Source: Halichondria panicea (Eukaryota > Porifera > Demospongiae > Suberitida > Halichondriidae). Taken from it: a stretch of 64,000 nt of DNA. The stretch's first letter is position 1. Every line of letters starts with the position of its first letter. The stretch is from assembly GCF_963675165.1 (NCBI RefSeq), contig NC_087380.1:3587803-3651802 (forward strand). The letters run 5' to 3'. Positions 1-31,435 of the stretch are shown here, piece by piece. The notes below the pieces were generated by a model that searched no databases, had not been told where the DNA came from, and worked only from the letters and a program-made list of their open reading frames with translations. A program made the position numbers and the translations under genes.

Positions 1-62
1 GCATACCTAACCCTGTCTGCCAGAGTCATAGATGTATGATTGCATGTTGTCTTGTAATATAG

Positions 63-3000
63 GTGCCGTTCGGGTGTGCTCTCCCACTGAGTTCTCACGG
101 ATTGGTGATGTTGTCCCTGTTGGGTGTACTGTTTGCATTCCGGAAGGACGTGTCGTAACGTTGAATTGCACCAGACAGAGTACCTTGGAGGTATCAGTTT
201 ACGAGTGGCGAAATGGTGCTGGTATAGTCGTGTCCACGTCACCTCTGCTCATTTCTGGCGCTAACAACAGCTACACTTGTAACACTACATACTTGGACCA
301 TTCTTCAGAAACCGTTGCCTCCGTGATTGCCTGTAAGTGAAAATCATTGGAGATTTTCATAATTTTCATGTGTCAGACTTCCATGAATTTGCTGCTATAG
401 CTACATAATTATTCACTCCATTGTTTGATTGGTAAACTCCACTATACAGACAGAGATGCTGTCACTTTCACTGCTCGAACTGCTGATGAATTTTTCTCTG
501 CACCCCTGATATACGATGGCTGCTCCAGGTATTCTGCTAACATAATTATATAGCCTTTGACATTACCAGGAGCAAATCATTCTAATATAATTATTGCTGT
601 GATGATTCTCAGGTTAAACAACCAGGTGGGACTTGAGAATATAGCTGTCTGTGCATTCGTTGGGGAGACGCTTGAACTAAACTGCGCTACTGATGACAAT
701 ATGGTTCCGTTAGAAATCACAGCTCCTGATGGGAGTATGGCCACTGGATCACTGATTGTGTCGAGTGTGGACATAGGTGACGAAGGAACTTACAGCTGTC
801 GACTGAGCAATGATCCAGGTCCTTGTGGGCTATCAACTGAGCAAAGAGAAGTGCGAGTATTCAGTTACTGTAAGTGCAATGCCACGAAAGGGTTTAACAC
901 ATACCTCAAACATCTTTTAGTAACCACGATATATTATCACCATCCCCATCTTCACTCCTATAGTCTTATCTTTGCGACACACTCGTGTTAATTCTTGGCA
1001 TAACTTCAGTAATTACAATTGACCTAATATGGCTTCTGTCAGCATCTTCATTGGTCATTGGTTAGGTCGACATCGTTGGCTCTCTGTTGCACATTCGTTA
1101 TGTATATAGAGTTCTCTAAACTGTTACAATTGACTAACTACAGCTCCCCATAATAAATTCTACATGAAATATCATCTTATGCTACTGTCTCATGCACTTT
1201 ATAATTGTAACTATAACAATTGTGTCTGTTTGGAATATGCCAGATAAGCGAGTGGATAAACCATACCTATAGTTTGTACATGTCCACCCACTCAACTGAG
1301 AAAATAGCGGGGCACATGATCGCATGCACAAATGATAACCACGCCCATAGCCATGGTAATGGTGCGCATTTAAGGGACATGCCTAATTATAGTAGAACTT
1401 TGACCCTGTTCAGAAATTAGCCGGATAATCGATTCTATGACTCCATACACACACATACAGATGTCCCTGAATCAATTAACCATACTGCTATCACTAGCAG
1501 CCTCATTTCCTTGCGTGCAGTGGAAATCACATTCATCATTCCAGCAGAAAATAATATCCCTATAGCTGAGTATCGCTACATCCTTTGCAGGAATGACTGT
1601 GCTAATTCCACAATTTCCACTGTAAGCACAGTGTCTAGGGGCAACAACATGCTTAGCTTCACTATCAGACAACTGATTCCAAACAGTCAGTATATTTTGA
1701 GGGTGTATGCTGTGAATGAGTTCACAGGCGGCACTACTCCTGTTGATGACGCTGATGCTCACATTTTCAATTCAGCAACTAAAGGTAAGAGATATCTTCA
1801 TGATTATGCTTGTACTGAATTGAGCAATAATTATGCTCGCTGCATCTATAACGCCTTGTTAGAATACACAACAGTACTACAGAACCGTATTTTATCGTTT
1901 ATCGTATTATATGCAGCTGATGGAAGACCAGTTAACCTGATAGTTTACTTATCTACTGACACTCATCTGGTATTGTCATGGACACTCCCAGCACTTGCAA
2001 CACAACCTGACGTCATCGTCATGGATTTCAACATCAGTTGGGGGAGGACTGGAGACCCATCGTCTAGTGATCTTCTACCATTCAGTCCCAGTACACCACA
2101 GCAAAGATTTGCTATACCCTCCATCCTTGAACCTTCCACTCGCTACACAATTGAAGTTATTGCTTACTACTCCGTTCCTTTCCTTATCAGTGATGGTGCT
2201 GCTATCATTGGAACAACACTGCCAAATGATCAAGGTAAAGTGAATGGCATTGTTATTTGATATTGTTACTTTCGATGTTCAATGCAGTACGTACTACTAC
2301 TTGTCCACCTGGTCGTGACTCCATCTGGGATGTCGAATGGCCTGAAACTGGAAGAAATGTGACTGTACAAGGAATATGTCCTCATCAGCTAGGCACAGAC
2401 GTTAGCGGTAAGCCAAAAAGACAGCTGTAACTTTTGCTATTATATTATTTACCGAGTATTGTAATGTTTATATAGGACAAGCCACTCGCTACTGTAACAG
2501 TGAAGGTGTGTGGGCTGACCCTGATGTACTACAATGTAAAAACATGGAGTTTATTAGTATTCTTGAGCAGGTATCTAAACAATACAAACAGATAATTATT
2601 TTGATTTGTGCCCAAATAGTTACATACAATGATCTTGATTGTTGTATATAGGTAACCAGTACTTCAAGCGAGGAGCTAGTAGAGCAAGCAGCTAATCTCA
2701 CCATGCAACTGGCCGCCATAACTCAGCCAAACGCGATCTCATTGCTTCCCTCCTCCCTAAATGCCACCAATCAAGTGCTAAGTCTGGTGATCAGTGCACT
2801 AAAAGAAGAGTCCACCACCACGGACGCTAATGAGGTAGGCGAGAAAAGGTAGTGTATATCTGGAGTATATACTGCATTGCTATATATAACAGTATAATCA
2901 TTTATACCACACTTACGTCACCACTAATTAATTTCATTGGTCAACAGCCCCGGGGCACAATATTTTTCATTTGTCCAAGAACAGAAAGGAGCCTTGCTTA

Positions 3001-6000
3001 ATGGTACTAAGACTCTAAAGCAACAGCAGAATCTGCTCTACAACAATATAGATTGCGTGCTAAGCCTCGACCCATGTACATTTTTGCCAAGAAGAGCTTG
3101 CATCTGCAGCAAAAGATGTTGAATGCACAATGCCAGTGGCAGATTCAGAAGGGGTTCTTCGGGTCCAATTGAACCCCCCATCTGAGACATAAGTGAGTGG
3201 GAGGCACTTAAGCAACTAGTTAGCAAGACGGTTTTCCTTTATTACTAGCACTTATCACTTATCTTTATTTCTTGTAAGTTTTGCAAAGCTTTGTTTGAGC
3301 AGTTTTTTACAAACTAAAAGGCTAAAAACTCTCTAGCGCATGCTGACTGTTTGAAGAAAGTGAAAACCTTTTTTTAGGTCAAGCGCATGCTCACTGTTTT
3401 GAACAACTGACGAGCCACTGGAACCCCCCTTTCAAGAATCCTAGATCCGCCACTGAATGCTCAGACTTAGGAAGCTCCTGAGCATCTGTACGAGTCGATT
3501 TGTTGCTTATAAGATGGTTAATGGCTGTAAAATCCGATATAGTCCTGCTCTTTTGCCGCAATATGCATCGTGTATTGGATTGTTGCTAGAGGGAGATCCT
3601 TTTATATAGTGCTGCGGTCACATGGTATATATAATATTATAAGTCAGATATAACTACACTTACCCAGACTCCGTATCTTGCTACCGTGGTTATATATCCC
3701 TCGGAGTATCCACAGTAGTTGAGGATATGTCAGAGTGCATATCCTCCTCGTAGGTGTGGTATATCCTATATACGTAGCAAAGATCACTGTTTTACATGAA
3801 GGTAGATCTATACCATCAAACAGGAAGCAAATTTAACCAGTAGAACGTTTTCACCAGCTTATAGTGGATGTTCTGAACAATGTGTTGGAGATAAACAACT
3901 CCCAGGGATGGAATGACTTACAGTCTGTAAGTCTATAGTATCAAATTAGAGTGTTATGCTAAAGACTTTCTCTTTCATGTAATATTATAGACTGATGCAG
4001 GAAGTCAAGTGTTGCTGGACAATGCTGAGAGACTGGGTGTTCTGTTGGCTAGGTCACAGAACGCTAATGGAACTATTGAGCCAGTTAGAGTGTCCAGGCC
4101 TAACATTGGTAAGAGGGTATAGTTATGATGTTCACTGCTCATTAATGGACACAGCCATTTCTTCAAGTTTGATTAACATCTCCAAAGACATCACGAAAGA
4201 CATCACTTTTCCTCAAATAGAAGATTTGGTCAATTACACAAACTCATCCACTCTGGTACCTGCCGCTATTCGGATATCCTCAGCATTGTTGGCAGACAGA
4301 CTGGACGAACAAAAAAACACTGGTACAGTAAATTTGGAAGTTATCATTAAAATAATATGCACTTATGAGTTTGGTTTTATAGCTATCCCAACTGTTTTCA
4401 TTCTCTTCCAAAACCTTGGCTCGTTTCTGCCTACCCCCACTGATGGTCTCAGTAATACCACCCAGGGGGCATCAGTTGTCATCTCATCTCAGGTAGGGGA
4501 GCGGGGGAATGGTCGACCCTCCCAGACACTCCAACAATCCCCTTTGTCTCTCAACTTCACTTTCAATGAAGTGAGCAACTGAGTCAAATTTTATGTGCCA
4601 TAATAAGATTATATTGATTCCACTTTAAATTATAGGTTGAAAACCCAGAAAATTATCGTTGCGTGTTCTGGAACTTCTCTGAGCCGTATGTTGCAAAATT
4701 AACACAGTCTGACTATTTATTGTGAAGCATGCAGAGTTGGCAATGGTGGCTGGATCAGTGATGGAGTATCAACTATCAACAATGCTACTGAGGGATCCAC
4801 AACTACTGTTCAGTGTTCTAGTACTCATCTCACTAGCTTTGCTGTCTTAGTGGATCTGGGAGGACCAAAGGTATCAATACAAATTATGCACTCCATATTG
4901 TACCAATATTTATTATGCATTTTTTTGCTAACAGAATAGTTCTCTTGTTGAACGCAAAATTCTTGATGTTGTTTCCTATGCCGGCTGCTCTATCTCTGTG
5001 GTCTGTCTCATAGTAGCTGTCATCTTTTTCCTTGCTCAAGGGTGTGTGTGAGCTCGTACTGTCATATACCATACATGTGGGCCTTACAAAATAATATACT
5101 GTGGTTGTCAGCTTACACACTATAGAGTGTATATATAGTGTTCTACTAAAAAATGTGGTGTGACTAAGATTTATATTAGATAAAAAGATATCTTTTTTAT
5201 GGCGTGTAATTTAAGTCAGTATTGTGCCGGTTATTTTTCCGGGGCAAAAAGGTTTTACTGGGACATTTGCCGCGGCAAAAAAGTTTGGTTTGCTAAATAC
5301 CAGGACGATTGCCCCGGCAAAAAGCAACATTTTTTGGATGGGTAAATACCGCTCCAGAATGCTTACTGAGCCATTTACCGTGGCAAAAAATTTACCAGGC
5401 CTTTTTCCACGGCAAAAATATTTACCAGGCCAGATCTAATCATCCCGTGATGTGCACCTGATCTGCCTCGTGGTGTACATTATTGTACTATGGATGTTGT
5501 GATCTCGTTATTGGCTGCCTTTCAGCTTTCAGAGAGTTAATAAGTAGATAATGTAGTCTTGTACAGCTCAAACCACCATGGATTGCATTTACTGGCACAG
5601 CTCAAACCACCATGGACTCCGTTTACTGGCAAGAGTATCATATCTGAAGCAAAACATTTATCTCTGTGACCCAACAAAGAAGTTGTGTTAATCGTTTCTT
5701 TGTTTTATAAAAGTGAACAACAAAAACTGTACACCCAATCAATATATAATCGGGATTAATGAGGGAAGGAGGAGAGACAGGAAAACAATGGGGAAGTACA
5801 ATTCTTTAGCAGACAAAAAGTCTGCGGCAACTGGCCTGGTAAATGTTTTTGCGGTTGCAAACATTCTGGAGCGGAATTTACCCATCCACAAAATTTTGAT
5901 TTTTTGCCGCGGCAATCGTCCCGGTATTTAGCGAGCCAAACCGTTTTGCCACGGCAATTTTCCCGGCAAATGTCCCAGTAAAACCTTTTTACCCCGGCAC

Positions 6001-7686
6001 AATACTGACTCAAATTACACGCCATATCTTTTACACACATGCAGAAAACAACTCTTCAACAAAGTCCACTACTTTGTTCATCTCAACTTCTCCATTTCTT
6101 TGTTGCTGGCTTTCTTAGTGTTTATTGTTGGAATTGACACTGCAGTTGGAAATAGGGTAACAGGCAATGGCCAAGCCAATAAAGTTTGTTATCAGAAAGT
6201 CTTTTCTTCTCTTAGGTTGGCTGTGCCTTTGTGACTGCCCTCCTTCATTACCTATTCCTGGCAGTGTTCTGTTGGATGTTGTGTGAGGGAGTCATGCTCT
6301 ATCTATTGTTGGTGGCCGTGTTCAGTGCAGTAACACGGAAGTGGTGGTTTTTTCTTATGCTTGGATACTGTAAGTAATGCCAATTGTTGCTATGACTGCA
6401 TGTGTATATATACTACATATTCCCTTTAGTACTTCCCCTGCCCTTTGTGTTAGTCACTGTGGCCGTTAGGTGGCGCTACTATGGTATAGCAGAAACTGAA
6501 CAATCAGAATTGTGAGTGATTGATAGTCTGTATTTTCTCATGACTCTGTTGTGAATGCAGCTGCTGGTTGACAACTCGGGATGGGACAATCTTTGGTTTT
6601 GTTGCTCCAATGCTGGCAGTTATTGTGGTGAGTGTACACCACAATCTATTATACTTGTGATCTATACACTATCAACACTCTCAGATCAACATCGTTTTTT
6701 TGGTATTCATTTTGAAGTCGCTTTGGAAGAACAAAAAAAGTGCTGCTAAGCGAATGGAAAAGGAGGAGAGTAATTTTGAACTTGTCAAGTTAAGCAATAA
6801 TGCTATATTACTGCATGTGCTAGCTCATGAATATATTGCAGGTCTCTACTGCAGGGCGTAGTTGTTCTCCAGCCCCTGCTGGGCCTCACATGGGCATTTG
6901 GACTGCTCACACTCGTCAGAAACACTTCAGCTTTCGTCTGGATATTCACCATCCTCAATTCACTCCAGGTGAAGTGACAACTCTAGTGTTATCATTGACT
7001 TGATACTTAATAATTTTTATATAGGGAGTGGCTGTTTTGTTCTTCCATGTTATAAGGAATGATCAGGTAAGGTGAATAGTATATTTATAATTGCTGCACC
7101 ATTTTGTACAAAGGTGAAGCAAAAGATCAACTACTGGTGCATGAAGTTGTTCCGTCCTTCTACAATTTCAAGATATGATACCGTAAGTGTTAAATCGCCT
7201 TGGATAAATTTTAACATGCTCTTCTTTACTGCAGACTGGAATGTCTAACCTTACAAGTGAAAGCTTAAAAGGTAGATTTTTGATGTAGAATAATTAAGCA
7301 CCTCTTATGCACAGTAGCTAATTGAACACCAAATTTTTGCAGACACAAGCACCCTAAAATCCACTCTCCCAAGCGGAATAACGCTGCCCCTATCTGAGCA
7401 TTCGGAGCAGTCACAGTACTCTCAGCTTCCTATCACTGAAACCAAGATGGAACTAGCAAATGAGGCTGATGACGTAATGGTGGGACAATTACAACCTGTC
7501 TAATATTACAACTGATTGTATTTTTATGTAAAGGAGGCTGTTGCTGATTCACTGGACACTAAGGTCGATCTTAAGCATGATAGTAATGCTACAGAGGACC
7601 TCAGTAATCTAGTGGACTCTAAGGATGACGAAAAAATGGACATGATTGTGGACAAGACAACAACTCTCACTAATAAAGATGTCTAG
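63..7686 (+). CDS. Adhesion GPCR gene A (Ig/FN3/HRM/GAIN/7TM), 5'-truncated by the window
   Basis: Exons seen: 63-332, 450-528, 613-869, 1461-1784, 1917-2234, 2288-2407, 2476-2570, 2652-2834, 3858-3926, 3991-4108, 4155-4322, 4383-4570, 4636-4685, 4735-4870, 4935-5041, 6045-6156, 6216-6369, 6430-6511, 6561-6627, 6685-6788, 6842-6968, 7025-7066, 7114-7182, 7235-7271, 7343-7479, 7534-7686. In order they encode two Ig-like domains, two FN3 domains, an HRM-type domain (WPET, then RYCNSEGVW), a GAIN region, a GPS ending in SSTHLTSFAV (predicted cleavage between L and T near 4831), seven membrane segments and a cytoplasmic tail. TM motifs such as CWMLCEGVMLYLL and LLGLTWAFGLL are typical of adhesion GPCRs. 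The first exons lie before the window, as the complete inverted paralogue at 33554-43376 shows. Every exon has the same length as its counterpart there. Ligand unknown. Confidence 0.93.
3134..3455. mobile_element. MITE-like element in an intron of gene A
   Basis: Ends form an imperfect inverted repeat (CAGTGGCAGATT at the left, GATCCGCCACTG at the right), flanked by the direct repeat AATGC, a probable 5-bp target duplication. There is no coding capacity. The same insertion sits at the equivalent intron of gene C (37779-38098), so it predates the duplication. Confidence 0.7.
3456..3857. other. Remainder of the long GAIN intron of gene A
   Basis: AT-rich intron sequence, present in inverted form in gene C with small indels. 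I see no exon or recognisable repeat boundary in it. Confidence 0.5.
5199..6025. mobile_element. Foldback element with long inverted arms in the TM1-TM2 intron of gene A
   Basis: The left end ATGGCGTGTAATTTAAGTC is mirrored at 6025 by GACTCAAATTACACGCCAT. The arms run about 200 bp and are rich in a repeated TTGCC..GGCAA motif. Similar ATCTTTT flanks on both sides suggest a target duplication. No transposase is visible. The same insertion is in gene C (35212-36068). It accounts for most of the roughly 1-kb intron. Confidence 0.82.
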
Positions 7687-8311
7687 TAGCTTTGTTGGTG
7701 AAAACAATATATAGTGCATGGACAAAGAAATCTAACAATTAATGCTGCAGATTGCAGAAGCTGCCAGAAAGGATTGTATGCATGTGTGACTGAATTTAAG
7801 TTTAGCATAATTATATCTAGAGTACAAAATTAGTGTGTTTAGCATAATATTATACGTATAATATAGAGCGTAAATTTTGTGGAATGGCCTCCAAAAGCGT
7901 TTCCTTTAATAAGTTTCGTGGGTTGACTGCTTATCGAAAACACTCCCAGGCCATGCCTTGATCTTTCTAGAATAATTTTTGTGTAGGATTGCTAACCCAC
8001 GAAAACAGCAAAAATGAAAAGTTCGCGCTATAGTGACCGGCGGTGCATGTGTTACACTAGACATTTGATAGACAAAATGCATTGTTGTACCTTCAACTTA
8101 ATGTTTGATAATCATCATCTATAATAGTACCGGCTTGATTTGGCCATATGTGACTCCTCTTGACTATACCATACTATATTTAAATTACATACAAAAGCAA
8201 CAGTTTATGTTTATTTCCAGATTGATGTGGTGAACTGATCTAACAGTATAATTATACAACCCTTAATTGAGTATTTTTAGGTGTTACATTATAATATATA
8301 CAGACTCTATA
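7687..8311. other. 3' flank of gene A, no gene seen
   Basis: The part up to about 7972 is repeated in inverted form at 33270-33553, next to gene C; similarity stops near a TTCTAGAA sequence, marking the duplication edge. No ORF with domain features and no canonical AATAAA signal was noticed. Confidence 0.5.
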
Positions 8312-10687: not shown

Positions 10688-13600
10688 ATGAGTTTCAAGC
10701 ACCATTTTTTCCTCTTTTTACTTTTGGGAAACGTGTCTTTTGTGTGGAGCCAAACTCAGAGTGAGTCATTTTAAAGTAAAACGTCTCATGTCTATGTGAT
10801 GAACCATTAATTTTTTGTTCTTATTGTAAGTCTATAGTGTGTAACTTTATCAATGGTACTCAAATAACGGCCTGGGAGATTATGCAGAACTTTAGCCATG
10901 CTGACGATCTGGAGTAGTTAGTGAACGTGTTCAACCCCATGCATGCAGGCACATAGGTGGCTTGCATTATAATTATATAGTCTGCATGTCAGTGTGTCTT
11001 TGCCTGCCTGCCTGCTGTCTGTCTGTCTGGTTCTGCTTATTAATTTTATATAGTCTTGATTTAGATTGGCTAGAGATCATGGCTTTTTTAAATAAACTCT
11101 TATGTTTATGTGCACCCTACAAGCCTATACAAACCTATTATGTTAATACTCCAACTAGTAAAGGCTTCCTTGCCGGACTCTGTTGAGATACCATATACTG
11201 TCTCAGTGCATCGCCTAAAACTGCAGCAGTGCTACATGCCATTTTAAAACTTGCCCCAACTGTATATGGCTAAATTTCATAGAATTGCAACACACATGAC
11301 TATTAAAATGCATGTGTCTTGCATGCTGGTCATTCATAATTATATAGGACTGATTATGATTTCTTGTGTGTAAATTAAAAGCCTTAAATTGTCCATTAAC
11401 CCTATATAGATGTGACCTTATCAAGTGTTGGCAACAAATTTGTAGTCGGTTTTCCCAGAAGTAATGGTCACGGAGAAAACCAGTTGTTTGTCGCAAACAC
11501 TGGGTCGATTAATGTTAGTTTCACAGTCACACCAATTAATGTTAGTGGGAGCGTTTCAACTTCTTCAACTACGGTAGTAAACATTCCATCTATTTTTGAG
11601 GTTTCTTCTATCAATGAAAGGAATAAGGGAATCCTTGTTGAAGCTGATGGAAACGTCAATGTGTATAGGATATCTTTTGCCACTTCAGCTACTGCAGATG
11701 CTTATTTGGCATTGCCATGTAATGAAATGGTAGTGTATGAATACGAATATTATGGAATCTCGTATATTTCCCCTGGTAGTGACTTTCCTAGTGTGATTTT
11801 GATGGTGGCTTGTGAAAATGAAACTGTTGTCAATTTTGAATACTCAATAATAACACTCAATAGTATGGAAACGTATCAGATTGAAAGTGGTACTGATCTG
11901 ACAGGAACAAGAATAACAAGTTCCAAACCCTTATCTGTATTTAGTGGATCTGATTGTGCTAATGTTCCCCGAGATGTAGACTTTTGTGACCAACTGGTTG
12001 AACAAGTGCCTCCAACTGTGACATGGGGCTCAAAATTCTTCGTAGCTTCTCTCGAGGGTAGATCTACTGGTGAACGTATTCGTGTTCTTAGTGCCCGAGC
12101 AGCAAATGTAGCTGTGAACTGCAACACTGTGGTATCTGTCAGGGAATTCCAGTTGCAGAGTGGAGGGAGTTTCAGAGAATTTGAAATCCCTGTTAACAGT
12201 TTCTGTAGCATTGAATCCACTTCTCCAGTACTTGTTGCTCAGTATGCATATGGTAGTCAGAGTGAGAGTAAAAGATGTGGTGTGGGAGACCCATTTATGA
12301 TGATAATTCCTCCAATTGAACAGTTTACAAACAACTATTTAATAGAGACATTCGCTCGTTTAGAATACAGCTATGTCACTATGTATGTTGCTTCTGAGTT
12401 TTTTCAACCTGAACACATTTTATTGGACAATTCTGTTGTTTCTGGTTGGCATAATGTTAGCTGTTTAAGTGGAGAGGTTTGCGATTACGTAAGTAGAGTG
12501 AATGTGTCCACTGGAGGCCATTCTATTCGCCATCAAAACAGCTTAGCCGTTCTAGGCGTTTCAGTATACGGATTCGACTTGTGCAATTCTTATGGTTACC
12601 CTGGAGGCATGAGGTTGTCTCCCATACAATGCAGCTGTGGTCCAAATTCTACTTGTCTGAATAACATGAGGAACTTCAACTGCAAACGTGAGTTTTAAGT
12701 AGTCTATATATAGTTTCTATAAACAAGAAGAAAAGTTGGATCAGTTTTATGTGCCCTGCTCTTATTACAATCCCACGAGTGGTTCCGCAGCCATGTGACA
12801 TATAATCCTCAAATGCATGGCCATACAATTTAAGGTGAAGGGGACACATTGTAACACTTCAATATAATTATACCTATTGTAGAGTGCGTAGGCACCACTT
12901 GTTGCCCACCTGGTCGTGATTCTATCTGGGGTATTGAATGGCCTGAAACTGAGAGAAATGCATCGATACAAAGAGATTGTCCTAGGGAAGACATTAGTGG
13001 TAAGTCAAACTGTTGGAATTTTTATTGATTTTATTGCTGTTAATAGGACAAGCCACTCGCTACTGTAACAGTGAAGGTGTGTGGGCTGACCTTGATGTCG
13101 TACAATGTAAAAACATTGAGTTTGTTAGCATTCTTGAGCAGGTAAGTATCCAAACAATACACACAGTCTAAGCTATTATAAGTCTTTTTGACTTGTGTCT
13201 AACTCACTGAAATTGCATGTATATGTTTATTATAGGTAACCAGTATTTCAAGCCACGAGCTAGTAGAGCAAGCAGCTAATCTCACCATGCAACTGGCCGC
13301 CATAACTAAGCCAAACATTGTCTCATTACTACCCTCTTCCCTGAACACAACCAACCAAGTACTCAGTTTGGTGATCAGGGCCCTAGAGGAACAGTCAGAA
13401 AATTCTACCACTGATGCTATTGAGGTATAAGTAAGAAATAAAATCTAGCTGAATGCATGTTAGATATCCATGTAGCAATGACATGCATGTTACAGTATCC
13501 AACATTGAACTTTGCAAGTGCTAATGGAATTAAGATCGCAATAATCTACTACATAATTTATAGCTTTTTGCGAGATTGCAAATGTCACATTTTTTTGCTG

Positions 13601-16600
13601 AACTGGCTGATTTACATGCAATGTTTACATTTACAAAACCCTATAATTGTCCCTCAACAAAATTAATTTTAAGCAAATCACATTTTCCATGCATAGCCAA
13701 TAGTGGATGTACTGAGCAATATGCTTGAGGTGACCAACTGTCAAGGAATGAATGACCTGCAGTCTGTAAGTATATATAGTGCTGTATCACATTGTAAAGG
13801 TTTGCAATATTTATAATTATACATAACTATAGAGTGATGCAGGTAGTCAAATGTTGCTGGACAATGCTGAGAGACTGGGTGTTCTGTTGGCTAGGTCACA
13901 GAACGCTAATGCAACCATTGAGCCAGTTAGAGTGTCCAGGCCTAACATTGGTAAGAGGGTATAGTTATGATGTTCACTGCTCATAATGGACATGCATCAT
14001 GCAGCCATTTCATCAAATGTGATTGATACTTCTAAGGCCTTCACAGAAGACATAACTTTCCCTAAAAAAGAAGATTTGGTCAATTTCACAAACACATCCA
14101 TTTCGGTACCTGCCGCTATTCGAACAACCTCAGCATTTTTGACAGAAATACAGAGTGAACGAAACAACACAGGTGCAATTTCTTTATAAGTGGTTAATGC
14201 AATTATGAATTTGGTTTCTGCTTATTACAATTATAGCTATCCCAACTGTTTTCATCATTTTCCAAAATCTAGGCTCGTTTTTGCCTACCCCCACTGGTGG
14301 TTTCAGTAACACCACCCAGGGGGCATCAATTGTCATCTCATCTCAGGTAGGGGAGCGGGGGAATGGTCGACCCTCCCAGACACTCCAACAATCCCCTTTG
14401 TCTCTCAACTTCACTTTCAATAAAGTAAGCAACAGGCCGATTTTATGTAAATTGATCATGATTGTACTTTCCTATAGGTTGAAAATTCCGAAAGTTATCG
14501 CTGCGTGTTCTGGAACTTCTCTGAGCCGTATGTTGCAAAATTAACACAGTCTGACTATTTATTGTGAAGCATGCAGAGTTGGCAATGGTGGCTGGATCAG
14601 TGATGGAGTATCAACTGTTGGCAATGCTACTGAGGGATCCACAACTACTGTTCAGTGTTCTAGTACTCATCTCACTAGCTTTGCTGTCTTAGTGGATCTG
14701 GGAGATGGGTTGAAGGTATCAAAACCCACTTCATTGTACTATAACAAGTAGTCCATTGTTCATTCTGCCAACAGAATATTTCTGAAGTAGAGAGCATAAT
14801 TCTTGATGTTGTTTCTTATGCTGGCTGCTCTATCTCTGTGCTCTGTCTGATAGTAACCGTTGTCTTCTTCCTTGCTCAAGGGTGTGTGTGTGAGCTATTT
14901 CACTGCCAGTAGTTAAAATTACTTACTTATGTGTATGTGATTGTAATCGTAAAACAATAAACGATGACCGGAGTGTGTAATGATACCGTGTACGAGGGTA
15001 CAGCAGGGCATTGATTGATTGACGTGTAAATATGTACCTGTGTGACTACGTATGTATATCATTTACATGCAGGAGACAACTTTTCAACAAAATCCACTAT
15101 TTTGTTCATCTTAACCTCTCCATTTCTCTGCTGTTGGCTTACTTTGTGTTCAGTGTTGGAATTGAAACTGCAGTTGGAAATACGGTAAAGCATGATGTGT
15201 AGATATAATTAGATAATGCACTAATGCGCATTATCTAATCTGGATTACAATGCGCATTACTTTGCGTGTAAACAGGGCTATATAGTCAGAACTTTCTTCC
15301 CTCTCTAATAGGTTGGCTGTGCTTTTGTGACTGCCCTCCTTCACTATCTGTTCTTGGCAGTATTCTGTTGGATGTTGTGTGAGGGAGTCATGCTCTATCT
15401 GATGTTGGTGGCCGTATTCAGTGCAGTAACAAAGAAATGGTGGTTTTTTCTTATGCTTGGATACTGTAAGTATTATATAATGTCAATCTTTATGCCTGCA
15501 TAATTATACTTGATTTTATTTCCCTTTAGTGCTTCCCCTGCCCTTTGTGTTGACCACTGTGGCTGTTAGGTGGTACTACTATGGTGTGACGGAGACAAAA
15601 AAGTCAGAATTGTGAGTGGTTATATATAGATATTTGTACTTTTTCATGACTGTATGCAGTTGCTGGTTGACAACTAAGGATGGGACAATCTTTGGATTTG
15701 TTGCTCCAATGCTGGCAGTTCTTGTGGTGAGTGTATATCACAATCTATCATCATAACATGAACTGTGTCAGATCAACGTGGTCTTCCTGGGATTCATTCT
15801 GAGGGTGCTGTGGAATGACAAAACAAGAGCTGCTAGCAAACAGAGTGATGAGAAGAGAAATGTGACGAAACTTGCCAAGTAAGGCTAATAAAGCAACAGT
15901 GTTATAATGTTATTGTTCTTGACAATTTAAACAGGTCACTACTGAAGGGCGTAGTTGTTCTCCTGCCACTACTTGGCCTCACTTGGGCATTTGGACTGCT
16001 CACTCTTGTCAGCAACACTTCAGCTTTTGCTTGGATCTTCACCATCCTCAACTCATTCCAGGTGAAAGGAATACTCAACTTCATAATAGTTTGATATTAT
16101 CATCTTGTTTCGATAGGGAGTGACTATTTTGTTTTTTCATGTTATAAGGAATGATAAGGTATACCATTACTGCACACAATTCTATTGTATTTAACTGTAC
16201 CGGTTGAAGGTAAGGGGAGAAATCAAGATCGGCTACTGGTATAGAAAGTTTTGCCGTACCTCTGCAGTTTCAAGCGATACAGTGAGTGTTAATAATCGAA
16301 TTGTAATTTAACATGTTCTCTATAATGCAGACATCTGGAATGCCTACCCTCGTAAGGCAAAGCTCAAAAGGTAGATTCTACATTGTACACTGAAAACTCA
16401 CTTTCTGAGCAGTATAGATCTAGTATCTAGTATAGAGCACCTTAGATATATATTTTTGCAGACACCAGCACGCTCAAATCCACTCTCCCAAGAGGAGGAA
16501 CGCTGCTCCCATCTGAACATTCGGAGCAGTCACAGTACTCTCAGCTTCCAATATTTATGGTGAGACATTTACAACCAATGGCTATGACATTGCATGTGAT

Positions 16601-16744
16601 TGTTTTTTGTTTATGAAGGAGGCTACTGGGGATTCAATGGACACTAAGGTCAATCTTGAGCACATTGTTGAGCAGGATAGTGATGCGGCTAACGAGGACC
16701 TCAAGACAGCAACTCTCATTGATGGAGATGCTGGTGAAAACTGA
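10688..16744 (+). CDS. Adhesion GPCR gene B with IgGFc-binding-like N-terminal domain
   Basis: Exons: 10688-10760, 11410-12687, 12883-12999, 13047-13141, 13236-13424, 13697-13765, 13833-13950, 14005-14172, 14237-14424, 14478-14527, 14577-14715, 14775-14881, 15073-15184, 15312-15465, 15530-15611, 15660-15726, 15772-15878, 15935-16061, 16117-16158, 16210-16281, 16331-16370, 16462-16559, 16619-16744. This gives 1205 aa. Exon 1 is a signal peptide (MSFKHHFFLFLLLLGNVS). Exon 2 (about 425 aa) begins GNKFVVGFPRSNG and resembles the IgGFc-binding N-terminal domain, ending in a short Cys-rich segment (CSCGPNSTCLNN). Then come an HRM-type domain, GAIN, GPS (THLTSFAV), 7TM and tail, all close to gene A. 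All junction phases agree. The IgGFc call is from remembered family pattern; the GPCR part is firm. Confidence 0.92.
10838..10917 (+). other. Candidate alternative exon 1b of gene B
   Basis: After a pyrimidine-rich stretch ending in CTATAG, splicing from exon 1 (phase 1) would keep frame and add 26 residues ending in TAG, giving a secreted peptide of about 50 aa. The copy in B' (46112-46191) differs only by a synonymous ATT/ATC change. It could also be a poison exon or chance. Confidence 0.3.
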
Positions 16745-17741: not shown

Positions 17742-20334
17742 GCATGAAGGCATCTGGCTCAGCTTCATTCAGCCTTGAAAAGTGTACTAGATGGATGGGT
17801 CTGCTATTCTGCATGCAAAGACTTCTATCAGAGTGGTTAATTAGACCCCTTGAAAATTATTAAACATGTATGGTAAACCGTAAAGGGTTGTTACATTTAT
17901 AACAAAAAAACTAAAGACTTGGACCCAGGCCACATCGAGGCCACATGGCCTAGCCTGCCAGATCAGACACAATGGAATCAAGCAAGCCCACTTTAGCTGC
18001 TGTATTAAATGAGCTAGTTCCGATTGAAGACAAATGGCAGGACATTGGGATACAGCTGAACCTGAAAGATGAAATATTGCTGGGAAACCTACCAACACAC
18101 GCTCTCAGTTGCAAGAAATGATTCGCCATTGGCTGGACACTAGTAAGGCTTCTTGGACTGACCTAGTTTCTGTTTTGAGTACACGTTTAGTGTCAGAGGA
18201 AACCATAGCAGGTGTACTGAGCTTTACGTATTGCTATGATCATGAACCCCTCAATACTGATGGAGGGGAAAGCCGCAAAGATTCGTTGGAGAGAGAGCCT
18301 CGTCTCAATGGCAACCATCGCTCTGAAGCTAGAACTAAGTCAATCGTAGTGAGAGTCAAAGGTCGAAATGTACCCCGTGAAGTTACATCACGGCTCGAAA
18401 AGACAGTTCCAGAGTGTGATGGCACAGAGCATAGTCTTGGAAACTATGAGGTGGATAAAGGTCACACCCATAAATCTCATCGTCACTCAATTTCAAGCGC
18501 TTCAGGCATGTTTCTAAGATAATGTTATCAATTTTAATGTTTCTCCACCTGTATAGAACTTCTAAAAAGTGAGGTTGGAAAGTCGCTGAGAAGAAAATTG
18601 CTGAGTGATGTTAAATCTGCTAGAAGACACCTGGTAAGAAGATTTATGTGCATGTATAGCAAAATGTTTGTTTTCCCACCGGTGTGCAATTGCTATATAC
18701 TGATTGTGACTGTCACCTCAGAATGGTCACTCTGAACCAGTAGTGATTGACTCAAGATCAAAGCACACCCCAGAGGGAAATCCTGACCTACAGGATCGTA
18801 TACGAGGTATGACTAGGAAGAAATACTGTTGAGGTAGTTAGAATCTGTAATGGCGTGAATGTCTCGTAGATTATTGCCCTTTGCTTTAATGTACATGTGC
18901 AACAACTGCAGTTCTTCATATTCCTCCAAACCACAGGCTCATACTCGGAAGGCACAACGGAAACTCCCAACTCAAGATTGAAATCGAGGCAGACCAGAGT
19001 CGTTGAAAACACACAAAGAGATTACACAAAACAACTGGTATCATCCACTGACAAACGTAAGAGTCAATTCTTACCTGAGAAGGAGAAACATACTCCAAGA
19101 CGACCAGACAAAGACATGGCGGCCGTTAGTTGATTCAATAACTCATCATCGCCAAATCGTTTCTCGAGAAGATCCATAGACGTGAAAAATACGACAGATA
19201 GATCAAGAAAGGCTCCAGAACTCTTAAAAAATGCTCACACTCAAATTGTATGCTCAAAAACACCTGAGAGTATTCTGAACCGGAACAGAATAGCGGCTGC
19301 AATTTGTGACACTGTGAAGACAACTCTAAACGAGAATAAATGTGACAAGCAAAAGGTGAGATCAGATGCACCTAAAAAACGAGCAAGTTTTGTTTCGATT
19401 GAGTCACCCTGTGACCTGTTCGAAGGTTTGATAAAGCTGTGAAATCCCTTATGAAGAGTAGTTCAAAACATTTTAAAAGTGTGGAAAGAAACGTGAAAGT
19501 GTCTGATATAGATTAAACCTCAGAAAACAACTCTCACTGTCACTCCACTCATTCTGAGCACTCAACGTCCAGCTCACATTACCCCACAAAGAATACTTCA
19601 GACACAAAAATGTCAAAAGAAGGATCTGATTTGGAGATAGCCTCAAGAAAATCTAAATACAAACACTCTACAAAATCACCTGTTGAAAGAGAGTGTAAAT
19701 CCCGGTCAAGTAAAGTGGTCAAGATTGAGGTGACTAGTGACGGTTCTCCCTCTCAAAAGATCAAGAAGAGCTCTTACCACTACTCCAGTGACTCAGAACT
19801 TACGAAGTGCAAATCAAAACACACTAAAAATAAATCCGAAAAAAGTGCGGAGAGAAAGAGGAAATCTGAAGAAGAGTCCGACTCAGAAACTGTTCCAAGC
19901 GCTCACACTTGACTAAATCTCCTCTTCAAAATGAAAGTGACTCCTTGCCAAGTAAGGTGATCAAAATTGAGGTGTCCAGTGATATAGAAGTGTCAACCCG
20001 CCGAAAGATAAAAAAGAGCTCACACAAATACTCTAGTGATTCTGACAGTACAAAGAAACAATCTGAAAAGCATGCAGATAAAAAGAAGAAATTGGAAGCA
20101 GAAAAAGAGGCTGAACCAGAATCGACCTCAAGATGTGAAAATTATGATATTCATAACTTTTCAAAACTCCTCACGAGTAGCTTTTATTTCCAAATTATCT
20201 GTGAGTACACGTTTTTACGATTTTACTTTCATTCACAAACGTAGTGAATGTTAATACCCACAAAATGTTTTGTTGTCTTTTAAGGTACATGAATGGTATA
20301 AATGTTTTGGTCTAGCCCTATAGTCATAGTTATT

Positions 20335-24808: not shown

Positions 24809-24880
24809 CTAAATTGTTCCATTCAAAATGCCTCATCATTGTGTACATGATTGTATGCACTTCAGATATGCACTTCAGAT

Positions 24881-27800
24881 ATGCTGTCTAGAAGTATTTG
24901 GTTAGTGCTGCTACTGACCCTAGCTACTGTTACCAGGAGCGAGCACTATCACATTGTGCCAGTGGATTCAACTGACTTGTGTCATGACTATCGAAATGGA
25001 AATTGTTTCACTCTCGAGCAACTTGTTCAAAGAGACCTGTTATCTGGTGGAGACAATCTCACCTTGAGCTTCCTACCAGGAGATCATGTGCTAACGGAGC
25101 ATTTATTGATTTGTAACTTCTCGCATGTGCATATCATTGGCCAAAACGAAAGTCCTGCTGTAGTCAGATTCGATAGCAATAGTGCGATACTTTTTGCTAG
25201 TACTACTGAATTAAATATTGAGCACTTAGGTTTTGTTGGAGCGAATGTTGGACCACAAAACGTTGAAATTTTGATCATTGACAGTGCCTATGATATCTAC
25301 ATCAATCACTGCTATTTTTCAGATTTTAAATTACTCAATCAAGTGGAAAACCACCTAGTTAAGATTGCTAATACTCAAGCTGCAACGATAGAGAGCACTC
25401 TCTTTATGAACAACACTGGTCGGGTACTGCACGTTGTGGCTCATGATGTTTACATAACAAATAATGAGTTCACTGGAAATAATGGAGGTGCAGTTGACAT
25501 TGAATCAAACAACACACTGATTAACAACACAGAGTTCAACTACAACAGTGCTTGGAGCGGAGGAGCAGTAGCAGTGGTATCTGGTACTGTAGTGATCACT
25601 TGGTGTAACTTCACAAATAACAAAGCTTTCCACTGTGGTGGAGCGATTGCTGTTGTCTCAGGCAGTGTGTCCATCTCAGATTGTGAACTAACAAACAACA
25701 GAGCTGACAGAAGTGGTGGAGCGATCCTTGTTAATTCAGGCAGTAATGTGTCCATCTCAGACAGTGTGCTAACAAACAACAGAGCTGACAGGAGTGGTGG
25801 AGCAATTGATGTTGACTCAGGCAGTAGTGTGTCCATTTCCGACAGTACACTGATAAACAACAGAGCTGATAAAAGTGGTGGAGCGATTGATATTGACTCA
25901 GGTAGTAGTGTGTCCATCTCCGACAGTACACTGACAAACAACAGAGCTGACAGAAGCGGTGGAGGAGCGATTGATGTTGACTCAAGCAGTGTGTCCATCT
26001 CGGACAGTATGCTGACAAATAACAGAGCTGACGGGAGTGGTGGAGCGATTTCCGCTTACTCAGGCAGTGTGTTCGTTTCCAACAGTACACTGACAAATAA
26101 TAAAGCTGACGTGAGTGGTGGAGCAATTTATACTCACTCAGGCAGTATTGTATCCATTTTCAACAGTACACTCACAGACAACAGAGCTGACAGGAATGGT
26201 GGAGCGATTGATGTTAACTCAGGCAATGTGTCCATCTGGAACAGCATACTGACAAAAAACAGAGCTAACAGGAAGGGTGGAGTGATTGCTATTTACTCAG
26301 GCAGTAGGGTGTCTATTTCCAGTATATCTATCTCGGACAGCACACTGACAAACAACAGAGCTAACAATGGTGGAGCGATTAGTGTTGACTTAAGCATTGT
26401 GTCTCTCTCTGATAGCACACTGACAAACAACAGTGCTGGAGCGATTTATTCCTTTGACAGTAATGTGACCATCTCAGACAGCACACTGTCAAATAACAGT
26501 GCTAGTGGGACAATTATTGTTGACTTACACAGTAGTGTGATAATATCAGACAGTACACTGACACACAATAGTGCTAATGAGGGTGGATCAATTGATGTCT
26601 TCCAATCTTCCACCTTGATCATCAACAACACTAGTGTTACTAACAACATGATGAGTTTGAACATTTCACAGTCAAATGTGACATTTACTGGAATGAATAT
26701 TGTCAGCAATAACCATGGTCCCATCTATGCTTTCAATAGTCGAGTCGAGTTTAATGGACCTACAACTCTCAGTAACAATTGTGGTGTATTTGGTGGAGCT
26801 ATCAGCATTGTCCAGAGTGAAATGTACATTAACACGAAAGGGGTGATCATCACCAACAACACAGCTACCTCTGGAGGAGGGATATTTCTAAGAGAAAGTA
26901 CACTCTTTGTAAATGAGCCAATAGAGATCAATCTCAACACAGCACAGAATGGTGGAGGGATTTATGCATATTCTAGCAAAATTGAGTTTCAATCATCAGG
27001 ATCAGTGGTAAGTGATTATCCACTTCCTCTAAATAAACAAAGTAAGATTGCTGACAACATTGCTGAGAATGGTGGAGGTATTTATGCAGTTGCTACATCC
27101 ATTAAACTTACTCAATCATATGTCAACATTGACACAAACACAGCAACCGCTGAAGGTGGTGGAGTGTATCTACAGCAAAATTCGAAACTTTACCTTTTTA
27201 AAAAAGACATTGAATATCCGATGTCTAGGCCTCGGGATCAATTATTTGTCAAGTTAATGATTAATAACAACTCGGCTCGGTACGGAGGTGGGATATTCGT
27301 GGCAGATGACACTGAGAGTGGTGCGTGCAGAGGAGGGGCCACTGAAACAAATACTACTCAGACCATTTTTTCTGACTGCTTCATTCAAACAATTAAACAG
27401 TATAGAAAGAGATTTGCTACTCCAAACTATTTCAATTCATTCATGACTAACAACATAGCTACCCAGTCAGGAGCAGACATTTACGGAGGTTTGTTTGACA
27501 GGTGTACAGCAAGTCAAAATGCTGAATATCACATTTCTTCAAACGAATCTCTATCAGATTACGTAAGGAAAACAGTAAAATTTTCTTCGATATCCTCTAG
27601 GCCTATTCAAGTAATTTTATGTAACCATTCACAAAGTGACAATATTTCCACAAAAAAGGGACATGTGATTATAGTAAGTGTTACGGCTGTTGACCAAGTT
27701 GGAAATTCATTGAATGCCACAATTCGAAGTTCTGTTATCACTGAGAGTAGAGTTGGTCGTCTTAAAGAAGGACAAGCAGAACAAACAGTTGGCAATCAGT

Positions 27801-29680
27801 GCACAGAATTAGAGTATAATGTATTCTCACAAGATAGATCTGCTCAAGTGGTACTCTATGCTGATGGTCCATGCATCAATTTGGGAATTTCAAGACAAAT
27901 TATCAATATATCTTTTCTACCATGTACATGCCCCTTTGGGCTCAAGCCAATTCAGTCTCCAATTGAGTGCAAGTGTGACTGTGATCCAGTCTTGCAACAA
28001 AGATATCATATAACAAACTGTTTTGAGGAAAATGGGACCATTGAAGTGAACAACATATGGATAGAAGTCATAAATACCACCAACGGAACAGGTTATGTTG
28101 CTAGTAACTGTACATTTGACTATTGTGTACAAAAACCAATCAATATCAGCCTAAGCAACCCTGACAAACAGTGTGCCTACAATCGAAGTGGTGTCTTGTG
28201 TGGAGAATGTGAACCAGGACTCAGTCTTGTGTTGGCTACGTCAAGATGTGAACAATGCTCTAATATTTACCTTCTTCTTTTAATTCCATTTGCACTGGCA
28301 GGCATATTGCTAGTTGCTTTAATTCTCGTGCTCAACATTACTATAGCAACTGGAACGATTCATGGCCTCATTTTCTATGCTAACATGCTAGCAGCTAATA
28401 GATCGATTTTCTTACCTAACTTAAACAACTTTTTAACAGTTTTCATATCATGGGTGAATCTTGACTTGGGAATCGAGACATGCTTTTACAATGGAATGAA
28501 CTCTCAAGCAAAAGTACTCCTTCAACTTGTCTTTTCAGCTTACATGTTTCTTCTGATGTTCTTAATAATCATTTTGAGCAAGTACTTTGACTCATTTGCA
28601 AAGCTCCTCTCCAACAGGAACCCAGTTGCTGCCCTAGGCACACTCTTCCTACTCTCTTATTCCAAACTCTTACGATTTATCATTGCTGCACTACAATACA
28701 GGGTCTTAGATTATCCTGATCATACAAATGATATAGTTTGGCTGTACGATGGCAATGTGCAATACTTCACTCCAAAACACATCCCTCAATTTGTAGCTGC
28801 CGTCATAATCCTCATTGTCGGTGGATTGTTCACTGTACTGCTTTTCTTTGGACAATGGTTTCCACGCTGTTCTAAGGTTATGAAATGGACCAAGAACACA
28901 AAATACATTGGTTTTATGGATGCATACCATGCTCCATTCACTCCCAAGCATCGCTATTGGGTGGGACTGCTCCTCTTTGCTTTGATTACTCATAATCTAG
29001 TAACTGCTATGGCTCCAAACACTTCTCTCCCTATTCTATCAGCTGGGGTTCTTTCAGCTGGAATTATTGTCTGGAAACTACTAAATAATCGCTTGTATAA
29101 AAACACATTATGTGGTTCCTTCGAAACTCTCTATCTATTCAATGTTGCTATTCTTGCATTTGGCACCTTTTTTGTCAGAGATACAAAGAAAAATCAGTCA
29201 GCACTAGCCAAAACTTCAATGGCTATATCATTCACTTTAGTTGTGATAATACTCTGCTACCACTTTTACCAATCTATACTCAAGAAAAGTAATACATGGC
29301 TGAAGATAAAGGACATTATAAGGAAATTATGTGTTGATGTTGCAGACAGACGAGCTAACAATGGCTGGGAAATGTATCGTCCGGTAGTCGATGAAAATGA
29401 TGACGATGAATTACTTGAAGTAGTAGACGACTATGAACAAAGAGACCCGGTGGACCCACCTTACACTGGTGGAGCCGTGGAAGAAGCTGACCCTGATCGC
29501 TACATCACTCCTCCCATCATCAGACCAGCCACGAGGCCTGACCAGCTGAGACTATCCTACATGGATGAACTAGCCCCCCTCACCGCAGAAGACCACAGAC
29601 AAGTCCCTCCCCCTCCAAGAGTCAACTGTCATCCCGTTGTTACACACACAGAAGTCGGTCCCATACACAATAAAGTGTGA
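24881..29680 (+). CDS. Intronless secreted-type beta-helix protein with C-terminal multi-TM domain
   Basis: One uninterrupted reading frame. The start at 24881 is preferred over 24851 because MLSRSIWLVLLLTLATV makes a clean signal peptide; the 24851 start adds ten residues. Numbering from 24881, residues 30-900 are a right-handed beta-helix-like repeat region with SGGAI and LTNNRA motifs, similar in style to chlamydial Pmp (GGAI/FxxN) repeats. About a dozen near-identical 25-28-aa repeats lie at 25690-26590. A Cys-rich stretch follows (CECxPG-like, LCGECEPGLSL near 28200), then eight or nine hydrophobic segments (28260-29280) and an acidic, Pro-rich cytoplasmic tail. The protein has 1599 aa. 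I do not know its function; a cell-surface receptor or adhesion molecule is inferred. Lack of introns among intron-rich neighbours suggests retroposition or lateral origin. Confidence 0.9.
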   Translation: MLSRSIWLVLLLTLATVTRSEHYHIVPVDSTDLCHDYRNGNCFTLEQLVQRDLLSGGDNLTLSFLPGDHVLTEHLLICNFSHVHIIGQNESPAVVRFDSNSAILFASTTELNIEHLGFVGANVGPQNVEILIIDSAYDIYINHCYFSDFKLLNQVENHLVKIANTQAATIESTLFMNNTGRVLHVVAHDVYITNNEFTGNNGGAVDIESNNTLINNTEFNYNSAWSGGAVAVVSGTVVITWCNFTNNKAFHCGGAIAVVSGSVSISDCELTNNRADRSGGAILVNSGSNVSISDSVLTNNRADRSGGAIDVDSGSSVSISDSTLINNRADKSGGAIDIDSGSSVSISDSTLTNNRADRSGGGAIDVDSSSVSISDSMLTNNRADGSGGAISAYSGSVFVSNSTLTNNKADVSGGAIYTHSGSIVSIFNSTLTDNRADRNGGAIDVNSGNVSIWNSILTKNRANRKGGVIAIYSGSRVSISSISISDSTLTNNRANNGGAISVDLSIVSLSDSTLTNNSAGAIYSFDSNVTISDSTLSNNSASGTIIVDLHSSVIISDSTLTHNSANEGGSIDVFQSSTLIINNTSVTNNMMSLNISQSNVTFTGMNIVSNNHGPIYAFNSRVEFNGPTTLSNNCGVFGGAISIVQSEMYINTKGVIITNNTATSGGGIFLRESTLFVNEPIEINLNTAQNGGGIYAYSSKIEFQSSGSVVSDYPLPLNKQSKIADNIAENGGGIYAVATSIKLTQSYVNIDTNTATAEGGGVYLQQNSKLYLFKKDIEYPMSRPRDQLFVKLMINNNSARYGGGIFVADDTESGACRGGATETNTTQTIFSDCFIQTIKQYRKRFATPNYFNSFMTNNIATQSGADIYGGLFDRCTASQNAEYHISSNESLSDYVRKTVKFSSISSRPIQVILCNHSQSDNISTKKGHVIIVSVTAVDQVGNSLNATIRSSVITESRVGRLKEGQAEQTVGNQCTELEYNVFSQDRSAQVVLYADGPCINLGISRQIINISFLPCTCPFGLKPIQSPIECKCDCDPVLQQRYHITNCFEENGTIEVNNIWIEVINTTNGTGYVASNCTFDYCVQKPINISLSNPDKQCAYNRSGVLCGECEPGLSLVLATSRCEQCSNIYLLLLIPFALAGILLVALILVLNITIATGTIHGLIFYANMLAANRSIFLPNLNNFLTVFISWVNLDLGIETCFYNGMNSQAKVLLQLVFSAYMFLLMFLIIILSKYFDSFAKLLSNRNPVAALGTLFLLSYSKLLRFIIAALQYRVLDYPDHTNDIVWLYDGNVQYFTPKHIPQFVAAVIILIVGGLFTVLLFFGQWFPRCSKVMKWTKNTKYIGFMDAYHAPFTPKHRYWVGLLLFALITHNLVTAMAPNTSLPILSAGVLSAGIIVWKLLNNRLYKNTLCGSFETLYLFNVAILAFGTFFVRDTKKNQSALAKTSMAISFTLVVIILCYHFYQSILKKSNTWLKIKDIIRKLCVDVADRRANNGWEMYRPVVDENDDDELLEVVDDYEQRDPVDPPYTGGAVEEADPDRYITPPIIRPATRPDQLRLSYMDELAPLTAEDHRQVPPPPRVNCHPVVTHTEVGPIHNKV
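25690..26590 (+). repeat. Coding minisatellite, about 75-84 bp period
   Basis: Units start near ACAAACAACAGAGCTGAC and run through GGTGGAGCGATT to TCCATCTCAGACAGTAC. Spacing is 81 bp between early units and 78 or less later, always a multiple of three. Each encodes one beta-helix turn pattern LTNNRADxSGGAIxVxSGSxVSISDS. Confidence 0.88.
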
Positions 29681-31127: not shown

Positions 31128-31435
31128 AGTCATGCAGTAGTCTGTGAATAAGTACAATTCAATCACAGAATTAAATCAACGATACTGAAGCAACTGCATG
31201 TTATTTAAATGGCCTGTAGCCAAACAGTGCAAAGGCACAGAGTAAGAGAGAATTTAAGCGTAGTATAGCACAGACAGTATAGTATATAAACAAGCAGAAA
31301 GTGTGTATCTAATAATTATACTGAGAAGAAAAGACTTGTGTACATGTATATTGTTATCGACTTATGCATGTACATGAATCTATTGTTATCTAGTCATTTG
31401 TTTTGTGGCTTACCGGTATACCAGGACCTCAAGAA

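Follow-up and report, generated by a model that had tools for sequence, protein, structure and literature searches.

An IgGFc-binding exon on a sponge adhesion GPCR: a likely case of ectodomain replacement in Halichondria panicea

Introduction

How does an existing receptor acquire a new sensor? The varied ectodomains of adhesion G-protein-coupled receptors (GPCRs) are usually attributed to domain shuffling so ancient that its course is beyond tracing today. The question is raised by gene A, a 1205-aa adhesion GPCR gene with an IgGFc-binding domain in its extracellular part, and by its second copy, gene B, both in a 64,000-nucleotide stretch of the genome of the sponge Halichondria panicea (the window, C4:3587803-3651802; C1, C3, C4 and C5 are contigs of the 131-Mb assembly, which has 39). 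Wnt matches at 10 places mark the assembly as that of an animal, and COX1 appears in it as a single fragment, with two TGA, within contig C1. The event proposed here is recent enough to be read in DNA—from exon edges, a synonymous divergence (dS) of 0.3–0.4 and surviving unswapped neighbours—and a second receptor chassis retains decaying remains of its apparent old ectodomain. The locus offers a testable case of a receptor core gaining a new sensor, and of how animals can retarget a receptor by sensor swap; a domain that has otherwise been described in proteins of mucus and glue, and that bacteria also possess, is here joined to G-protein signalling in a sponge.

Structure of gene A

Gene A (10688–16744, + strand), spliced from the sequence, has 23 exons with GT-AG boundaries at 22 of 22 introns, and is open throughout its 1205 codons up to the stop; a self-written protein-to-genome aligner queried with the gene A protein returned the identical 23 exons. 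An earlier sequence-only reading had set the limits of the gene at 10688 and 16744, which are exactly the start and stop codons of this model. Its claim of an adhesion GPCR with an IgGFc-binding-like extracellular domain is borne out, in one frame in which the Pfam families IgGFc_binding, GAIN, GPS and 7tm_2 all exceed their cut-offs, and it was also correct that exon 2 alone (about 425 aa) supplies the IgGFc domain: in the spliced protein the Pfam model matches with 169.2 bits against a cut-off of 25.6, and a six-frame search of the genome gives a full-length PF17517 match at 11697–12572 (E 1.9e-49).

Five Pfam matches at E≤1 are found in the 1205-aa protein, with VWD, C8 and TIL not among them. 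IgGFc_binding (PF17517; 11697–12572) covers residues 121–412 and positions 1–297 of the 297 in the model (E 1.6e-49, 169.2 bits); a weak HRM match spans residues 457–511 (exons 3–4, 12900–13111); GAIN (PF16489), N-terminal to the seven-transmembrane (7TM) part, spans residues 534–740 (exons 5–9, 13272–14349; E 1.1e-16, 61.4 bits, cut-off 26.5); GPS (PF01825) spans residues 773–820 (14499–14691; E 1.3e-10, 42 bits, cut-off 22.5); and 7tm_2 (PF00002) spans residues 838–1084 (14802–16128; E 3.1e-48, 164.6 bits, cut-off 20.6). That these domains stand in the order IgGFc_binding-HRM-GAIN-GPS-7tm_2 in one gene we regard as practically certain.

Exon 1 (10688–10760) provides the start codon and a hydrophobic N-terminus, read by eye as a probable signal peptide. 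Exon 2 (11410–12687), the proposed captured exon, has intron phases 1 and 1 at its ends in both A and B; shuffled exons are often phase 1 at both ends. After the IgGFc domain it holds a Cys-rich stretch (12630–12686) that resembles the beginning of an EGF-like module found complete in related genes. The small Cys-rich segment said earlier to join the IgGFc domain to HRM-GAIN-GPS-7TM is present; the HRM match that follows it stays below its cut-off. Intron 2 (12688–12882), the proposed junction between captured exon and chassis, separates exon 2 from exon 3 by 195 nt, and the exons for HRM, GAIN, GPS and 7tm_2 continue in one frame. The GPS contains an H-L-T triplet (14668–14676) within HLTSFAVLVD; H-L-[T/S] followed by a hydrophobic segment is the usual pattern of a cleavable GPS and a tethered agonist, and TSFAVLVD is a probable tethered agonist.

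The same region could be two adjacent genes read as one, exons 1–2 encoding a secreted IgGFc protein and exons 3–23 a separate receptor. Exon 2 read through does meet a stop at 12696–12698, and IgGFc domains are present in non-GPCR genes of this genome. However, the phases match across the short intron 2, which contains neither AATAAA nor ATTAAA and so offers no such signal for a transcript end; beyond exon 2 the reading frame has its first Met at residue 539, in exon 5; and the order of IgGFc domain, then receptor, recurs in other loci. We consider separate genes extremely improbable.

Origin of exon 2

Protein identities of gene A differ along its length. Against 12 of the 13 modelled loci on C1 they are 64–77% in the IgGFc part, 34–37% in HRM-GAIN and 43–47% in GPS-7TM; the thirteenth, C1_4.52, is of a distant type (53%, 24% and 32%). 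Two paralogous receptors in the window, gene C (1421–7635, + strand, in part) and gene C' (33662–43406, − strand, limits approximate), have no IgGFc match and are 78–79% identical to A in HRM-GAIN and 82% in GPS-7TM; for L031, which lies immediately upstream of the window, the GPS-7TM identity to A is 87%. The corresponding values for C3_3.34 are 35% (IgGFc), 44% (HRM-GAIN) and 64% (7TM).

Synonymous sites separate the two parts as well: dS between A and three C1 genes is 0.36–0.39 in the IgGFc exon, 1.8–2.2 in GPS-7TM and saturated in HRM-GAIN, and dS between A and gene C is 0.32–0.33. This contrast between exon 2 and the rest rules out slow evolution of the IgGFc domain as a cause of the high similarity of exon 2, since constraint on the protein leaves synonymous sites largely free.

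The edges of these similarities can be placed in the DNA. Exon 2 is 77–82% identical in nucleotides to 12 C1 receptor genes within 11379–12685 (C1_17.607 only to 12440), and similarity between A and the C1 genes does not extend beyond this exon and some 30 bases on its 5' side. Gene C becomes similar to A at 12888, five bases inside exon 3, and stays so, introns included, in the 3' direction. No blastn match to gene C, gene C' or the other loci compared was obtained with exon 1, intron 2 or the remainder of intron 1.

Phylogenetic trees place the two parts differently. Genes A and B lie inside a 24-row clade of C1 type (98/99) in the IgGFc tree of 38 rows, and group with L031, C and C' (100/99) in the 7TM tree of 32 rows. 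Approximately unbiased (AU) tests reject both forced arrangements: in the 7TM tree, A and B joined to the C1 receptors (p 1.1e-5), and in the IgGFc tree, A and B joined to C3_3.34 (p 1.8e-5). The IgGFc tree has long branches, only 12 of its 35 inner branches are starred, and no conclusion is drawn from where it places L045, L046 and L049.

In the C1 genes that were read, the IgGFc exon runs on through the EGF-like module and is followed by 0–3 Sushi exons (five loci, by eye; two stretches have Pfam Sushi matches); the EGF_CA match in L032 is 19.3 bits, below the cut-off of 27. Exon 2 of gene A stops part-way through this module, at a donor site different from that of the C1 genes, and this early donor site explains its small Cys-rich segment. 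The exon 2 donor sites that the aligner gives for the C1 genes are doubtful, being forced by the join to HRM.

All three near chassis relatives of A whose ectodomain was read (C, C' and L031) have fn3 where A has IgGFc. In C (fn3 at 1421–2257) and C' it lies directly before HRM, with immunoglobulin (Ig)-like exons farther out in C' whose matches are below cut-off; upstream of L031, the stretch L068 matches SRCR, Sushi and fn3, and the fn3-to-HRM part there shares 78% DNA identity with that of gene C. From the conflict between exon 2 and the rest in identity, dS, DNA edges and trees, it is very likely that an exon of C1 type replaced a fibronectin-type ectodomain in the lineage of A and B.

A rival history would have the ancestor of A already carrying an IgGFc exon on the same chassis, later overwritten by a C1-type gene through gene conversion, in which case the combination is old and the function of the receptor unchanged. 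The chassis of C3_3.34 falls in the same clade as that of A (100/99; 64% in the 7TM) and bears an IgGFc part of another, more distant type (35%), which makes an old link between IgGFc and this chassis clade possible. Yet C, C' and L031, closest to A in chassis, each have fn3 next to HRM; L025, L028 and L029, of the same chassis clade, have no IgGFc place linked in the genome-wide linkage count; and the IgGFc part of C3 falls with two IgGFc places for which that count gave no receptor (L044 and L048; 100/99), though on long branches that drew a program warning. We rate conversion as improbable compared with replacement of a fibronectin-type ectodomain. The C3 locus itself (L015, C3:3340500-3350499), with a C4-type chassis and an IgGFc part of a more distant type, suggests a separate acquisition.

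The two copies

Gene B (45947–51994, + strand; IgGFc exon 46672–47949, the only part of B scanned with Pfam) has the same 23 exons as A, GT-AG at 22 of 22 introns and 1206 codons. Between A and B dS is 0.021, the nonsynonymous divergence (dN) 0.006 and dN/dS 0.28, corresponding to about 17.5 changes at synonymous and 16.5 at nonsynonymous sites (p 1.3e-4 for constraint by Fisher test, with counts rounded to 18 and 16). This ratio indicates that both copies have been under constraint since they parted. A dS of 0.021 is within the range of sponge heterozygosity, and A and B might be two alleles or an assembly duplicate, one gene and not two. But the A and B blocks match only in pieces beyond 17.8 kb, at 88–95% identity in the five pieces of more than 100 nt, and the orientation of the second copy is not the same for gene C as for the A block; a single gene seems unlikely. 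The description of two nearly identical intact copies holds for A and B, both open and with 23 exons; the architecture is, however, not confined to these two.

IgGFc receptors in the genome

PF17517 matches 133 places in the genome, and 20 of them (one a 200-nt fragment) have a GPS or 7tm_2 match less than 10 kb downstream on the same strand, before the next IgGFc place; this linkage count used 150 of the 182 7tm_2 matches in the genome. Conversely, 19 of 108 GPS places have an IgGFc place less than 10 kb upstream. In the controls, an IgGFc place was found on the opposite strand for 0 of 108 GPS places, and downstream with strand unchanged for 10 of 108, the latter as expected for genes in tandem. 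Eighteen loci were modelled, A and B and 16 others: 16 have no internal stop and two have one stop each, the 16 of 18 being an upper bound, as some models cover part of the query and the aligner can bypass a stop by an intron. In the C5 loci the parts lie too far apart for each locus to be accepted as a proven single gene: at 4.28, 6.31 and 6.48 Mb the distance from IgGFc to GPS is 8.4–9.8 kb, and at two more it is 14.5 and 22.5 kb; two of the C5 loci are among the 18 modelled. Rather than a pair, the IgGFc-adhesion GPCRs of this genome form a group of genes. A cluster of IgGFc places lies at C1:15.0-15.12 Mb, where L032 and L033 were read.

The IgGFc domain

Structure prediction, proposed earlier as a check, was applied to exon 2: an AlphaFold2 (AF2) model of window positions 11415–12686, built on an alignment of 34 sequences, of which 14 are from this genome and 20 from bacteria, has a predicted local distance difference score (pLDDT) of 88.2 and a predicted template-modelling (TM) score (pTM) of 0.90, and is almost wholly beta strand. 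Searches by sequence for solved homologues of exon 2, with copy B as query, gave 0 hits at E≤10, and a fold search with the model found no PDB chain with a TM score above 0.24 among the best 50 of 1055 rows; VIA-align gave Z 10.9 for residues 5–103 (1nc7) and at most 7.8 in the other 49 rows listed. The absence of a whole-domain likeness among these rows does not show the fold to be new. In BFVD there is one clear match to the model, the Feldmannia irregularis virus protein Q6XLX4 (TM 0.53, E 1.2e-9), which suggests, from the modelled structures, that IgGFc-like proteins may occur in algal viruses.

Bacterial relatives of the domain were found at 12 loci with 29–42% identity, and PF17517 was matched again in all 12 genomes. 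Of 294 genomes sampled within the phylum of G003 (the genome that holds L058; Planctomycetota), nine, G003 and G005 included, have a PF17517 match. The name IgGFc does not mean IgG binding here. Over the 55 pairs of 11 C1 genes, a family that left out C1_17.607 and C1_4.52, the median dN/dS is 0.48 for IgGFc, 0.55 for HRM-GAIN and 0.36 for GPS-7TM.

Proposed action of the receptor

Our overall explanation, to which we give a probability of about 0.6, is that A and B are probably working adhesion GPCR genes with a replaced ectodomain, encoding receptors that would cleave themselves, hold a ligand and carry a tethered agonist; for the architecture, the coding constraint and the conflicting histories of exon 2 and the rest it draws on the results above. 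A phase-1-1 IgGFc exon from a gene of chromosome C1 type would have been placed directly before the HRM exon of a fibronectin/Ig-type receptor. For cleavage, tethered agonism and ligand we reason from the family. The receptor would cleave itself at HL/T in the GAIN domain, and the outermost IgGFc domain would hold a ligand outside the cell; a pull on the outer fragment, or its loss, would then free TSFAVLVD and switch on the 7TM core. The exon swap would in this way retarget an existing signalling core. Tethered-agonist signalling is, by analogy, quite likely. The ligand would most likely be a glycoprotein of a surface or of the matrix, or the surface of a microbe; we put a microbial or matrix ligand at even odds.

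Several points weigh against this explanation. The HRM match, although in the expected position before GAIN, has 22.7 bits (E 1.3e-4) and does not reach the cut-off of 26.2. The type of the donor is ambiguous: dS between A and 19 IgGFc genes of C1 type, ten of them receptors, is 0.34–0.49 with receptors and non-receptors mixed, and the values for two Sushi-type genes (0.40–0.41) overlap those for the ten C1 receptor genes (0.34–0.41). (C1_17.607, C1_17.635, C1_4.52, L039 and the distant loci were omitted from this comparison.) Gene conversion acting on an older IgGFc exon would leave the same picture, although C, C' and L031, nearest to A in chassis, have no such exon. Lastly, since its dN/dS is not above that of HRM-GAIN, the IgGFc domain shows no sign of being a special target of diversifying selection, and it is not unusually fast.

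The IgGFc receptors might instead be an expanding family of microbe sensors, part of innate immunity, and not receptors for the sponge's own matrix. This would fit the clustered IgGFc copies, some of them broken, the relatives of the domain in bacteria, the mucosal role given for FCGBP in PMC9354016, and a GPS-containing adhesion GPCR of the sponge Aplysina aerophoba reported in PMC6208332 as differentially expressed on exposure to microbial patterns. It fits less well with amino-acid change in the IgGFc domain, which is not in excess, and with H. panicea itself, where the portion of PMC8242945 that we consulted has no GPCR among the genes responding to lipopolysaccharide. We hold immune sensing to be possible, if somewhat doubtful.

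Probable ectodomain exchange on a second chassis

Genes with other ectodomains are among the closest 7TM relatives of the C1 receptors, as three of the eight such loci without IgGFc show: L053 (upstream of L021) has Sushi repeats, L054 (upstream of L026) has an exon without Pfam match, and L055 (upstream of L024) matches reprolysin, cadherin repeats and, weakly, disintegrin. L055 and L024 together form an adhesion GPCR locus (C5:5694100-5705600, − strand) in which a reprolysin-type metalloprotease with a HEAGHNFG motif, a weak disintegrin and cadherin repeats precede GAIN-7TM.

In 11 of 12 C1 receptor genes, the interval between the IgGFc and HRM exons contains pieces whose DNA resembles the cadherin stretch of L055 at 65–85% identity; C1_17.607 has no match. 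Translated matches occur in nine of the 12, several with in-frame stops, and 20 shuffled sets of intervals gave 0 hits. A Pfam scan of five presumed relics gave one Cadherin match of 26.2 bits, below the cut-off of 28.8, and no Cadherin match in the other four. We read these pieces, on their sequence, as probable relics of a cadherin ectodomain replaced by IgGFc-EGF-Sushi. A 575-nt stretch in the IgGFc-HRM interval of L013 (C1:17634300-17643300) is 95% identical to part of L055 and is perhaps a mobile element.

A more distant type of IgGFc exon precedes Calx-beta repeats in L042. It is conceivable, at a little less than even odds, that the intron before the HRM exon of adhesion GPCRs is, in this lineage, a recurrent swap point, at which IgGFc, Sushi, SRCR-fn3, Ig-fn3 and reprolysin-disintegrin-cadherin cassettes have been exchanged on a few GAIN-7TM chassis, leaving relics and repeatedly retargeting receptors, with IgGFc captured at least three times.

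Relation to known systems

Gene A shares with the sponge adhesion GPCRs of Krishnan et al. (2014, PMC4302439, in the part available) the class B 7TM, an HL/T GPS and a long modular ectodomain; in A the GAIN is assigned by Pfam, and the HRM match before it is weak. In Amphimedon, ectodomains with Ig, fn3 and SRCR are described according to the same part, where EGF and HRM are named too; the IgGFc_binding ectodomain of A, in contrast, is not among the domains in the legend of its Figure 4. FCGBP and the vertebrate IgGFcBD proteins, as far as covered by the consulted parts of PMC9354016 and PMC11237159, resemble A in having an IgGFc_binding domain near the N-terminus. Those described differ in being secreted and in carrying, for the most part, VWD-C8-TIL units, or tandem IgGFc domains with disordered repeats; A has no VWD, C8 or TIL match, and a 7TM receptor follows. 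Closer at hand, the IgGFc-EGF-Sushi genes L032 and L033 of this genome have an IgGFc exon 75–76% identical to that of A, but there the EGF-like module continues and Sushi repeats come next, and L032 ends in a single hydrophobic segment (by eye) and not in GAIN-7TM.

Full-text literature searches on the IgGFc domain in sponges or in GPCRs listed no paper in which a description of the combination was seen, in keeping with the earlier remark that it was not among described adhesion GPCRs. IgGFc is absent from the available parts of the sponge and GPCR texts PMC4302439, PMC12716839 and PMC6208332, and none of four words searched for occurs in three quarters of the text of PMC13197933. The remark needs one qualification: a paper on H. 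panicea pattern-recognition receptors, GPCRs included, lists IgGFc-binding, HormR, GPS, GAIN and 7TM among the domains drawn in its Figure 1, in a legend that does not state the receptor class (PMC8242945), and the IgGFc-GPCR architecture may have been drawn before. The consulted text of that paper describes neither an IgGFc-GPCR nor an origin by exon replacement, and no description of an origin by ectodomain replacement was found in the full-text searches.

Other features of the window

Gene C was recognized by its fn3 match, its identity to A on the same HRM-GAIN-7TM chassis and exon matches, and C' by its fn3 and sub-threshold Ig matches, inverted repeats and chassis identity. Window positions 1–8100 (+ strand) and 33500–43400 (− strand) are near-identical inverted copies of the fn3-type receptor, alongside the direct duplication of the IgGFc receptor block. 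Fragment D (31432–33499, + strand, limits approximate), identified by DNA identity to A, exon matches and a gene model, is a truncated chassis copy from exon 4 on; it is 93% identical in nucleotides to 13111–14908 of A, has one stop in its model and has no IgGFc match.

A single-frame gene of 1601 aa (24875–29680, + strand) contains Chlamydia-PMP-type and beta-helix repeats followed by several hydrophobic segments (by eye), and is not among the window repeats of 300 nt or more. Finally, at 53232–55951 and 17900–20250 a death-domain frame (34.2 bits at 53232–53801) lies beside a long Lys/Ser-rich frame, which is open for 599 aa in the second block and in pieces in the first.

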